From Cystobacter ferrugineus (GTDB taxonomy: Bacteria > Myxococcota > Myxococcia > Myxococcales > Myxococcaceae), in contig NZ_MPIN01000004.1 of the NCBI RefSeq assembly GCF_001887355.1, positions 186,001-250,000 of the forward strand: a stretch of DNA of 64,000 nucleotides, in the 5' to 3' direction. Of the stretch, positions 23,646-36,965 are shown in pieces (the first letter of the stretch is position 1; every line of letters starts with the position of its first letter). A model generated the notes under the pieces. That model was not told where the DNA came from. It did not search any database and saw only the letters and a list, made by a program, of their open reading frames with translations. The translations under genes were made by a program, and so were the position numbers.

Positions 23646-24376
23646 GCCCATTTCAGGAGATACGCGTGACGCCCACGATGACGATTCCCGTGCTTCCCTG
23701 TGTTTCTCTCGACGAGTCGCTGGAGTTCTACCGGCTCCTCGGGTTCCAGCAAACCTACCGGCAGACCACGCCGAATCCGTATGCAGTCGTCGAGCACGAT
23801 GGGGCTCAACTTCACTTCGCTGGCGTGAAGGGGCTGAAGCCCTCGGAGGCGTACACCACGTGCCTGGTGATCGTTCCGGAGGTCGAGCGGCTGCATCAGG
23901 TCTTCGCCGAGGCGCTCCGCTCTGTCTTCGGCAAGCTGCCGGTCTCGGGGCTCCCGCGCATCTCGCGAATGAGGAAGGGACAGAGTCGCTTCACCGTGGT
24001 CGATCCCTCTGGCAACTCCGTCATCTTCATCCGGCGGGATGCGCCAGACGACTACGACGAGGGCCAGAAGTCACAATCCTCATCGCGTCTCGGCAAGGCA
24101 CTGCTCGCCGCGGCGCGGCTGCGTGACTTCAAAGGAGACGATCTCGCCGCCGCGAAGGTCCTCGATGTGGCGCTCGCTCGAAAGGAGCCGGCTCTACCCA
24201 TTGAACGTGCGCGGGCGCTCGCCGCCCGGGCCGAGTTGGCCATCGCGCTCGGGGACGAGGCACGCGCCCGGACCGCGAGGGAGGAGCTTCAGCGGATCCC
24301 GCTCTCCGATGAGGAGCGCGAGCAATTCCGCGAGGAGCTCGAAGCCGCAGACAGCCTGGCAGCTCAAGTTCTTTGA
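23642..24376 (+). CDS. VOC (glyoxalase/bleomycin-resistance-like) family protein with helical C-terminal extension
   Basis: A 244-residue protein. Residues about 10-130 form one VOC domain (IPVLPCVSLDESLEFYRLLG, then YAVVEHDGAQLHFAG and closing FTVVDPSGNSVIFIRR), related to bleomycin-resistance proteins, which bind toxic ligands rather than catalyse. The last 100 residues are a helical, Ala/Arg-rich region resembling TPR repeats, which is unusual for this family. It overlaps the MarR stop codon by ATGA, so the two are a regulator-target pair. The final codons (Gln-Val-Leu-stop) lie inside a copy of the dispersed CTTTGACACC repeat, so the natural end of the protein may have been altered by insertion of that repeat. 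Confidence 0.85.
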   Translation: MSPFQEIRVTPTMTIPVLPCVSLDESLEFYRLLGFQQTYRQTTPNPYAVVEHDGAQLHFAGVKGLKPSEAYTTCLVIVPEVERLHQVFAEALRSVFGKLPVSGLPRISRMRKGQSRFTVVDPSGNSVIFIRRDAPDDYDEGQKSQSSSRLGKALLAAARLRDFKGDDLAAAKVLDVALARKEPALPIERARALAARAELAIALGDEARARTAREELQRIPLSDEEREQFREELEAADSLAAQVL

Positions 24377-24389
24377 CACCCTCTCGGGG
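24361..24389 (+). repeat. solitary copy of the RAYT-associated repeat, embedded in the end of the VOC gene
   Basis: Bases 24362-24388 are identical over 27 nt to 36660-36686 in the array downstream of the transposase; the core is CTTTGACACC followed by CTCTCGGG. It overlaps the 3' end of the VOC gene and supplies that gene's TGA. The rest of the gap (24390-24644) holds no gene; it becomes AT-rich from about 24545, probably the lactonase promoter. Confidence 0.85.
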
Positions 24390-35460: not shown

Positions 35461-35583
35461 CGCCAGTGGTGTCGCCGCCAGTGGTGTCGCCAGTGGTGTC
35501 AAAGGATTTGAAACCCGCCAGTGGTGTCAAAGGATTTGAAACCCGCCAGTGGTGTCCCCGCCAGTGGTGTCAAAGGATTTGAA
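35461..35583 (+). repeat. upstream repeat array, six units with core CCAGTGGTGTC
   Basis: Six copies of CCAGTGGTGTC occur in about 115 bp; three (starting near 35490, 35518 and 35561) continue into AAAGGATTTGAA. Those units fold: arm GGTGTCAAA, loop GGA, arm TTTGAAACC, with 8 of 9 positions paired. The other three are shortened units. The core GGTGTCAAAG is the reverse complement of the core in the array downstream of the transposase. Confidence 0.88.
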
Positions 35584-35713
35584 CCGAGGGAACCGAACCA
35601 GAACGAGACTCGGCGTGGACGGTTGACGCCACCCCTTCAAGTGCTTTCGCGGACTTGCGAGTTGGCGCGCGCGGTGCATCCAGCCTGGAGGAGCGCACGC
35701 GGGGGGGAAGGGG

Positions 35714-36643
35714 ATGGGCTGGCCGCTGAGGATGTTCCAGGAGGAGGGCTACTACTTCGTCACGTCCAGGTGTTTCCAGGGGCGGCTGTTGTTACGCCCC
35801 AGCGAGGAGGTGAACGAGGTGGTGGGAGGAGTGCTGGCGCGAGCCGTCCAGCAGAGCGCCGGCAGCGTCAAGCTGTACGCCTTCACCTTCGCCTCCAATC
35901 ACTTCCACTTGTTGGTGTGGGCACGAGGGGCCGCGCTCTCAGGCTTCATGCAGTACCTGCGCGCCAACCTCTCCAGGAAGGTGGGCAAGCTGGTGGACTG
36001 GAGTGGAGGCTTCTGGGAGAGGCGCTACTCGGCGGAGCCAGTGCTGGACGATGCGTCGATGGTCGGACGGCTACGCTACGTGCTGGCCCATGGAGTGAAG
36101 GAGGGCCTGGTGGACAGGAGCGCCGAGTGGCCGGGGCTCACGTGCCTGCCGCAGTTGCTGGGGTCGGCGCGACGGTTGTTCCGGTGGTTCAACTGGACGA
36201 AGCGCTGGAGCAAGCGCGGAAGCGAGGACATGGCGGAAGAGGGGCGCTTCGTGCAAGCGTGGGCCGAGCCGGTGGAGTTGGAAATAGCGCCCCTGCCGTG
36301 CTGGAAAGGACTGAAGGAAGAGGAGCGGCGGAGTGCGGTGCGGAGCCTCGTGGAGGAGGTAGAAGCGGAGGCTCGAAGCCGGGGCACGCCCGTATTGGGA
36401 GCGCGAGCCGTGAGGGCGCAGCACCCGCATACCCGGCCCGAGCACCTCAAGAGGAGCCCGCGGCCGTTGGGGCATGCCTCCACGCGGCAGGCGTTGAAGG
36501 AGCTGCGCGAGCAATACCGGGCCTTTGTCGCGGTATTTCGAGAGGCGGCGGCTCGGTGGAGTCGGGGGGACTTCTTGGCGTGCTTTCCGCCATTCTCCTT
36601 CCCGCCGCGTGTCGCGCCAGTTCGTGTTGCTCCAGTTCTTTGA
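35714..36643 (+). CDS. REP-associated-type (Y1/IS200-like) transposase
   Basis: A 309-residue protein of the Y1_Tnp/RAYT superfamily. The HUH-type metal site is SNHFHLLVW (His63, His65). Then FMQYLRANLSRKVGKLVDWS and GGFWERRYSAEPVLDD correspond to the helix and strand carrying the nucleophile region in RAYTs; by eye the canonical Tyr position is Leu and the nearest candidate is Tyr81. A basic C-terminal extension of about 150 residues follows. HUH enzymes nick and join single-stranded DNA at hairpins, so the flanking hairpin repeats are its likely substrate. GGGGAAGGGG just upstream supports the ATG at 35714. Its own stop codon lies in the first downstream repeat unit. A single gene with no accessory protein. 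Confidence 0.85.
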   Translation: MGWPLRMFQEEGYYFVTSRCFQGRLLLRPSEEVNEVVGGVLARAVQQSAGSVKLYAFTFASNHFHLLVWARGAALSGFMQYLRANLSRKVGKLVDWSGGFWERRYSAEPVLDDASMVGRLRYVLAHGVKEGLVDRSAEWPGLTCLPQLLGSARRLFRWFNWTKRWSKRGSEDMAEEGRFVQAWAEPVELEIAPLPCWKGLKEEERRSAVRSLVEEVEAEARSRGTPVLGARAVRAQHPHTRPEHLKRSPRPLGHASTRQALKELREQYRAFVAVFREAAARWSRGDFLACFPPFSFPPRVAPVRVAPVL

Positions 36644-36965
36644 CTCCTTCTCGGGGCTGGCTCAAGTTCTTTGACACCCTCTCGGGACACCCTCTCGGCC
36701 GGACTTGGTTGACACCTTCTCCGAGTTCTTTGACACCTCTCCCGAGGGAGTTCTTTGACACCTTCTCCGGACACCTTCTCCGAGTTCTTTGACACCTCTC
36801 CCGAGACACCTCTCCCGACACCTTCTCCGAGTTCTTTGACACCTCTCCGCCGTTCTTTGACACCTCTCCGCCGCGGGTGGAGTTCTTTGACACCTCTCCG
36901 GAGGTGGAGTTCTTTGACACCTCTCCGAGGAGTTCTTTGACACCTCTCCGGACACCTCTCCGGGC
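36631..36965 (+). repeat. downstream repeat array, about ten units with core TTCTTTGACACC
   Basis: Ten copies of TTCTTTGAC are at about 36634, 36667, 36725, 36750, 36784, 36831, 36853, 36882, 36910 and 36932; the first has ACTCC in place of ACACC and overlaps the transposase stop. A variant (GGTTGACACC) is near 36709, and several half units consist only of GACACCTCTCCG or ACACCTTCTCCG. Full units read GGAG-TTCTTTGACACC-TCTCC, so GGAG/CTCC arms could pair. Spacing is irregular (22-58 bp), unlike CRISPR. Between the array and the esterase start (37016) nothing else was seen except its ribosome site. Confidence 0.9.

Follow-up and report, generated by a model that had tools for sequence, protein, structure and literature searches.

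The window, that is the whole stretch of 64,000 nucleotides that was analysed (G000:C4:186001-250000, from a genome of 12.05 Mb), carries a Y1/HUH transposase gene (35714..36643, + strand, 309 aa) with an array of short repeats on either side. The left end array (35461..35586, + strand) consists of six X-GGTGTC units, X being GCCAGT in this copy, with GGTGTC at positions 35468, 35483, 35495, 35523, 35551 and 35566; three of the six units run on into AAAGGATTTGAA. The innermost left end (GCCAGT-GGTGTC|AAAGGATTTGA) and the leader to the transposase start occupy 35560..35713 (+ strand). The TGA stop codon of the gene falls within the right end (GTTCTTTGA), of which the innermost copy is degenerate (AGTTCTTTGACTCCTTCTCGGGG, 36634..36656, − strand), and the right end array that follows (36665..36964, − strand) is made up of nine TTCTTTGACACC units with outer letters CTCTCGG, TTCTCCG or TCTCCG. 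The initial annotation had described six units upstream and about ten downstream of a gene with an HFH metal motif, the cores of the two unit types being reverse complements, and this description was borne out. There are six exact copies of CCAGTGGTGTC upstream of the gene (span 35463-35571) and nine exact copies of GTTCTTTGACACC plus one degenerate TTCTTTGACTCC (at 36636) downstream of it, where GACACC occurs 15 times in all; the cores are indeed reverse complements, and the protein has an NHFH motif at residues 62-65 and matches Pfam Y1_Tnp (E 2.6e-5). Another right end of this family (AGTTCTTTGACACC-CTCTCGG, 24367..24387, − strand) stands alone elsewhere in the window. Homology to the relatives G033 and G032 breaks off at its left side and resumes about 130 bases past this end, with sequence that lies 10–12 kb away in those relatives.

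Exact copies of GTTCTTTGACACC number 42 in the 12.05-Mb genome and those of a reversed control none, so that its recurrence is beyond chance; CCAGTGGTGTC occurs exactly nine times, six of them at the window locus (reversed control, one). The same genome gave 24 matches to the window transposase, four of which (including the window copy) cover at least residues 1-301 uninterrupted by a stop, at 79–100% identity, the remainder being truncated or broken pieces. Among the 96 family genomes screened, 19 match the transposase at E 0.001 or better; full-length copies are present in G000, G002-G004, G006, G007, G032, G033 and G080, and more distant transposases (44–53% identity) in G046, G081, G082 and G088. 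Full copies occur several to a genome and at different loci, and two of them (L137 and L138 in G007) are nearly identical, so that the gene itself appears to move. We then counted the motif GGTGTCARASRAYTCG in 29 genomes selected from the 96. The nine with a full-length transposase have 15–159 copies each (G000 57, G032 142, G033 118, G002 63, G003 159, G004 15, G006 37, G007 38, G080 42) as against 0–6 in the other 20 (G005 6, G035 2, G063 1, G073 1), the motif being absent from 16 that include all four genomes with only distant transposases; the reversed motif was not found in any of the 29. Short transposase pieces do occur among the 20 (seven matches in G005 and one each in G034, G010, G050, G073 and G087). 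Confinement of the repeats to this locus, or lack of a link to the transposase in related strains, had been named in advance as grounds for giving up the initial interpretation; end copies lie far from the window locus, and among the 29 genomes the repeats go with the transposase, so neither ground applies. A plasmid search with the transposase gave one weak match (37% identity over 30% of the query) and a phage search gave none. The tree of 42 copies of this transposase family carries a long-branch warning for its distant members.

From comparison of the copies we interpret the window repeats as in-place iterations of terminal inverted repeats, those of a Y1 transposon present in multiple copies. 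The element as we delimit it would be roughly 1.1 kb long, a Y1 (HUH) transposase gene between inverted ends of consensus NGRGAN-GGTGTC-AAAGRACTCGA, and it is found in Archangium and relatives together with hairpin-shaped miniature copies. The 83 distinct outermost ends (283 loci) give the consensus C(-7, 80%) N G(-5, 87%) R G(-3, 83%) A(-2, 84%) N | GGTGTCAAAG(A/G)A(C/T)TCG, in which only the positions outside the pattern that the end search required, GGTGTCAAAG[GA][AT][CT], are informative. The right side is closed by the same end motif, inverted. Conserved GRGA precedes NGGTGTC, with GGAG in some copies, and other copies of the element carry different letters where this one has CCAGT or GGAG, so that the outer letters of the units are copy-specific. 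Two details of the initial annotation are thereby withdrawn: CCAGT before GGTGTC belongs to the left unit in this copy only, and the GGAG before TTCTTTGACACC, taken there for the tetranucleotide of a REP, likewise represents letters of this copy.

The fetched loci contain 37 distinct miniature elements of 39–133 bp, mostly 52–65, which usually pair one end of the AAAGRACTCG type with one of type GGTGTCAGACGATTCG; several of the longer ones hold arrays or are shortened full elements. Many miniature copies have GTAG inside the second end type (GATTCGTAGG), not as a hairpin foot. Folded together with its outer letters, a 52-bp miniature copy gave one hairpin (z -5.58), which none of 200 shuffles equalled. 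Three single ends were also folded: two did no better than shuffles (z -0.23 and +0.60) and the left unit of the window folded weakly (z -2.89, 4 of 200 shuffles as good), which leaves a single-end hairpin as the recognised structure unsupported in this genus. The miniature elements are probably mobilised by the same transposase.

Whether the six outer letters (X) belong to the element or to the host was judged from several loci. By eye, the innermost X is GGGGAA in 14 of 17 recent miniature copies (one of the 14 having GGGGAG as its outer unit), CGGGAA in two and TGGGAA in one; the opposite side reads TCGG in 16 of the 17, and the flanks beyond differ. At L332:18841 two relatives read ...ctgctcatcgccc|agcatt where Archangium lansinium reads ...ctgctcattgccc|GGGGAG-GGTGTC, and since the host sequence of the two relatives lacks X there, X is part of the element at this site. 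L137 and L138 share X = CGAGGT at two loci. On these three grounds (the shared GGGGAA, the absence of X from relatives at L332:18841 and the shared CGAGGT) we rejected host target as the main view of X; against that rejection, L073 and L135 are close protein neighbours in the tree yet have CGGGAT and CGTGAG, and X is thus not fixed for ever. The left boundary is confirmed against two relatives at one site, where the flanks are chimeric: on the right of L332:18841 the match picks up again close to where TCGG ends, though the relatives have that sequence at a different locus. Single contiguous queries and flank comparison among loci yielded no clean empty site for the whole element. Three sites were discarded, L209:13709 (empty in G033 and G032, but itself with just one end and extra DNA, hence no clean insertion), L209:18341 (a replacement) and L147 (synteny with G005 stops before the element).

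In an alignment of 28 family transposases (A1), His63, His65, Tyr122 and Gly127 are invariant (28/28 for Tyr122 and Gly127) and His126 is kept in at least 90%, giving the family the tyrosine motif Y---HG, in which Tyr122 would be the catalytic residue. A structure model made from 28 sequences (mean pLDDT 83.5) was used as query in Foldseek and found the TnpA-REP structure 4er8 as the nearest solved one (E 1.5e-5); 4er8 was also best in VIA-align (Z 14.7, rmsd 2.4, 155 residues aligned, 14% identity), followed by the IS608 and ISDra2 transposases, which are IS200/IS605 enzymes, at Z 9.2 and below. The affinity to TnpA-REP enzymes proposed earlier thus holds at the level of the fold. Residues from about 145 to 300 are modelled as further helices and strands, and a search with the whole protein found no Pfam domain in that part.

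The arrays themselves were analysed at 258 ends kept as independent by their flanks, at loci that were chosen because they hold matches and are not a random sample of genomes; an array was defined as at least one repeat sharing five or six of the outer six letters. By this definition 93 ends bear an array and 165 do not. Taking one innermost junction per array-bearing end, the copied unit stops exactly after GGTGTC in 65 of the 93, 1–6 nt past it in four and nine or more nt past it in 24; when all junctions are counted, nine of the 93 have at least one at 1–6 nt beyond GGTGTC. The two-unit ends (n = 44) divide in the same manner (33 exact, three at 1–6 nt, eight at nine or more). As 24 of the 93 innermost junctions lie deeper in the element, there is a second class of breakpoints. 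If GGTGTC is not required, 96 of the 258 ends repeat their outer 6-mer exactly within 12–45 nt (a shuffled 6-mer recurs at 12 of 258), and the copied pieces stop after exactly 6 nt in 61 cases, after 7 in two, after 15–28 in 14 and before 6 in 19, some of these last being point variants. The usual period of the arrays is 12–15 nt (55/65). They occur at both ends of full copies and at the ends of miniature copies, and also at ends with no intact transposase alongside.

The arrays change frequently and in steps of one unit. One orthologous end has a single unit in the window's own genome and two in G033, the difference being one 15-nt unit, CCGGAGAGCGTGTCT; this is the only such pair found. In Archangium lansinium (G003) 17 near-identical miniature copies are present at different sites (18 entries, two of them representing a single locus), and scoring by eye gave arrays on at least one side in nine of the 17, or eight if L332:14370, with its differing outer letters, is left out. 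Most of the 17 interiors differ by no or few bases (by eye), so that in these recent copies arrays seem to be about as frequent as base changes.

The reading that we prefer, to which we would give a probability of about 0.6, is that nicking by the transposase at GGTGTC|AAAG makes the end arrays through re-extension and resealing. Reading the enzymology from the junctions alone, the enzyme would nick the strand at GGTGTC|AAAG and leave a 3′-OH on GGTGTC and a 5′-phosphotyrosine on AAAG; the 3′ end would slip back by about one half-site and be re-extended to the nick over the last 12–15 nt, and resealing would then add one X-GGTGTC unit. Repetition of this cycle, presumably with the enzyme acting on both ends, would produce arrays with local outer letters and a fixed inner boundary. 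The model predicts what is observed, namely a sharp inner boundary with an outer boundary that is loose by a few letters, outer letters that are local, steps of one unit and confinement of the arrays to element ends. TnpA-REP enzymes, as described in PMC8266576, cut at C|T or C|A with formation of a 5′-tyrosine link, and leave a 3′-OH able to prime synthesis or to rejoin; both junction dinucleotides seen here, C|A and, in L168 (a distant relative), C|T, are among the sites given in that paper. The wider proposition, that a Y1 family adds 12- to 15-nt half-site copies to its own ends by nick-primed, locally templated re-synthesis, we advance tentatively and at somewhat less than even odds. If it were true, enzyme-driven addition of repeats would generate hypervariable element ends and a natural record that maps the cleavage site.

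The main competitor, which we regard as possible but distinctly the less probable, is ordinary replication slippage at a short inverted end, the transposase having merely dispersed the ends and played no part in the growth of the arrays. In its favour, the units are short and homogenised locally, some of the deeper junctions resemble microhomology joints by eye (e.g. CTC|CGAG), and the deeper class as a whole would fit slippage as well as it does a nick. Slippage accords poorly with the distribution of the repeats, however, as GGTGTC is iterated at 152 of 680 occurrences near element ends but at just one of 878 far from them (the sole case being an end of the distant relative L168), and tandem duplications of period 11–17 number 84 in about 42.7 kb near ends as against 17 in about 999 kb elsewhere, a density about 115 times higher. 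The high frequency of arrays in recent miniature copies also speaks against it, as does the sharp junction of Archangium-type single ends that fold little or not at all. On this last point the distant relatives (44–53% identity) give slippage some ground, because several have hairpin-like ends, e.g. GAGGTGTCAAACACCTC, and in both of those that were folded (z -6.15 and -4.45) a real hairpin is present with the junction at its loop. Ten distant loci were viewed by eye: units clearly stop at GGTGTC in L163 and L168 (in L168 before T), this is doubtful in L165, L167 has a similar array ending GGTGC, and no array was seen at the rest. The rule that units stop at GGTGTC is therefore probably not confined to one genus. 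Several of the distant relatives at L161-L169 have ends that are more hairpin-like and REP-like (GAGGTGTCAAACACCTC, AAGGTGTCTGGCACCTT), and the family may bridge termini of the REP and TIR types.

The initial annotation had seen in the locus a myxobacterial REP-like system with its own processing enzyme; in the form weighed here, the units would be REPs and the enzyme a domesticated RAYT. The dispersal of the repeats, their link to the enzyme and the TnpA-REP fold all stand, and all 28 members of A1 match NCBIfam REP_Tyr_transpos (REP-associated transposase) at E 0.01 or better; the miniature copy is, like a REPIN, an inverted pair that folds strongly, and the conserved GRGA before NGGTGTC might act like the foot of a REP. 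What does not stand is the identity of the units, since the end consensus (NGRGANGGTGTC) has no GT[AG]G foot and two of the three single ends form no hairpin beyond that of shuffles. The protein, too, has Y---HG instead of the Y---NP given for class 2 in Quentin 2018 (PMC6006769), the window copy scores 52.2 bits against NCBIfam NF047646, under the curated cut-off of 80, and a gene with several full copies per genome seems to move. We therefore consider a REP/RAYT system in the strict sense very improbable. Compared with RAYT/TnpA-REP and its REPs, REPINs and BIMEs, the element shares the HUH/Y1 fold and the miniature inverted pairs but lacks a unit with a GT[AG]G-footed hairpin, iterates a piece that is half an end (12–15 nt) and has a mobile, multi-copy gene.

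A closer parallel is found in TIRYT/TIRtron (Di Nocera 2013, PMC3733652) and TnpA-Y1 subclass 2.1 (Quentin 2018, PMC6006769), which likewise have a long Y1 protein with a C-terminal extension (one with a helix-turn-helix in subclass 2.1; PMC6006769). The TIRYT gene is flanked by terminal inverted repeats and not by GTAG REPs, and TIR copies are dispersed in the genome, many of them as dimers or clusters (PMC3733652). The ends differ, however, being NGRGAN-GGTGTC here and mostly GGGGWSAS there (PMC3733652), as do the Y---HG motif and the presence of several full copies per genome, and iterated half-ends with a fixed inner junction are not described in the sections of PMC3733652 and PMC6006769 that were consulted. 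IS200/IS605 elements have in common with the present one an HUH single-tyrosine fold, mobility and multiple copies, but they have subterminal hairpins and no TIR where it has inverted ends, about 150 aa where it has 309 and Y---Q where it has Y---HG. MITEs, like the miniature copies, are short and non-autonomous and have both ends of the autonomous element, inverted; here the ends mostly differ in type, one being AAAGRACTCG and the other AGACGATTCG, and the single miniature copy that was folded forms one long hairpin. In its working the element resembles a Y1 transposon bounded by terminal inverted repeats, TIRYT/TIRtron being the nearest such system, and fold and termini together place it nearest to TnpA-REP/TIRYT; because it has neither the expected tyrosine motif nor the majority TIR motif we assign it neither to subclass 2.1 nor to the RAYTs. 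Among the CC-licensed PMC papers listed by our searches there was no report of the element and none of half-end iteration with a fixed inner junction. Amplification near such enzymes is in itself not new, since REPs reiterated in tandem along with pieces of the DNA beside them have been described (PMC3733652).

The least probable explanation of all is that selection maintains the arrays as iterons, which would regulate the transposase or its neighbours as additional binding sites or as parts of promoters (CTTTGACACC contains TTGACA). The occurrence of arrays at both ends of full copies and at miniature ends lends this some colour, but it sits badly with the 165 of 258 ends that do without an array, with unit numbers and outer letters that vary freely between copies and with the arrays at solitary ends that have no adjoining transposase.

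How REP-type repeats spread and are amplified is unsettled, partly because TnpA-REP genes are mostly of low copy number and look domesticated in the accounts of PMC6006769 and PMC8266576. The myxobacteria, including Archangium lansinium, hold a relative of TnpA-REP that has a mobile gene, miniature derivatives and end arrays, and a single junction, C|A (in one relative C|T), is marked by these arrays and is open to a simple cleavage assay. If the enzyme does make the arrays, rapid tandem growth can start from HUH nicks, and this would be relevant to the origin of BIMEs and similar clusters.

It was noticed in passing that the elements may mark rearrangement points in these large genomes. In G033 the counterparts of the left and right flanks of the window copy (35426 and 36979), which match at 95% and 98%, are separated by 1.8 Mb, and in G032, where they match at 95% and 94%, they are on different contigs; there is no element end within 300–400 bases at the matching sites of G033 and G032. 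By this comparison the window copy lies at a breakpoint where one of the lineages has been rearranged. At one of the miniature copies in L329-L333, the host DNA on the left and that on the right correspond to separate loci in relatives. These loci (G003:C1:1495000-1594500, about 100 kb) contain 16 of the 17 near-identical 52-bp copies, or about one in every 6 kb; elsewhere that genome was only sampled. A short repeat, TCGACCTTACCCATTTTT, or its inverse is found at or near several ends (L088, L089 and L152), and a second small repeat family of this kind may share the neighbourhood of the ends; another repeat, GACTCGACTTTCGCCATTTT, lies beside ends in two genomes (the L066 flank and the right flank of L332:2893). 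Some solitary ends adjoin long tandem repeats, whose periods are near 108 and 165 bp (L085/L269 after the end at L085:684; L224 97-1061).
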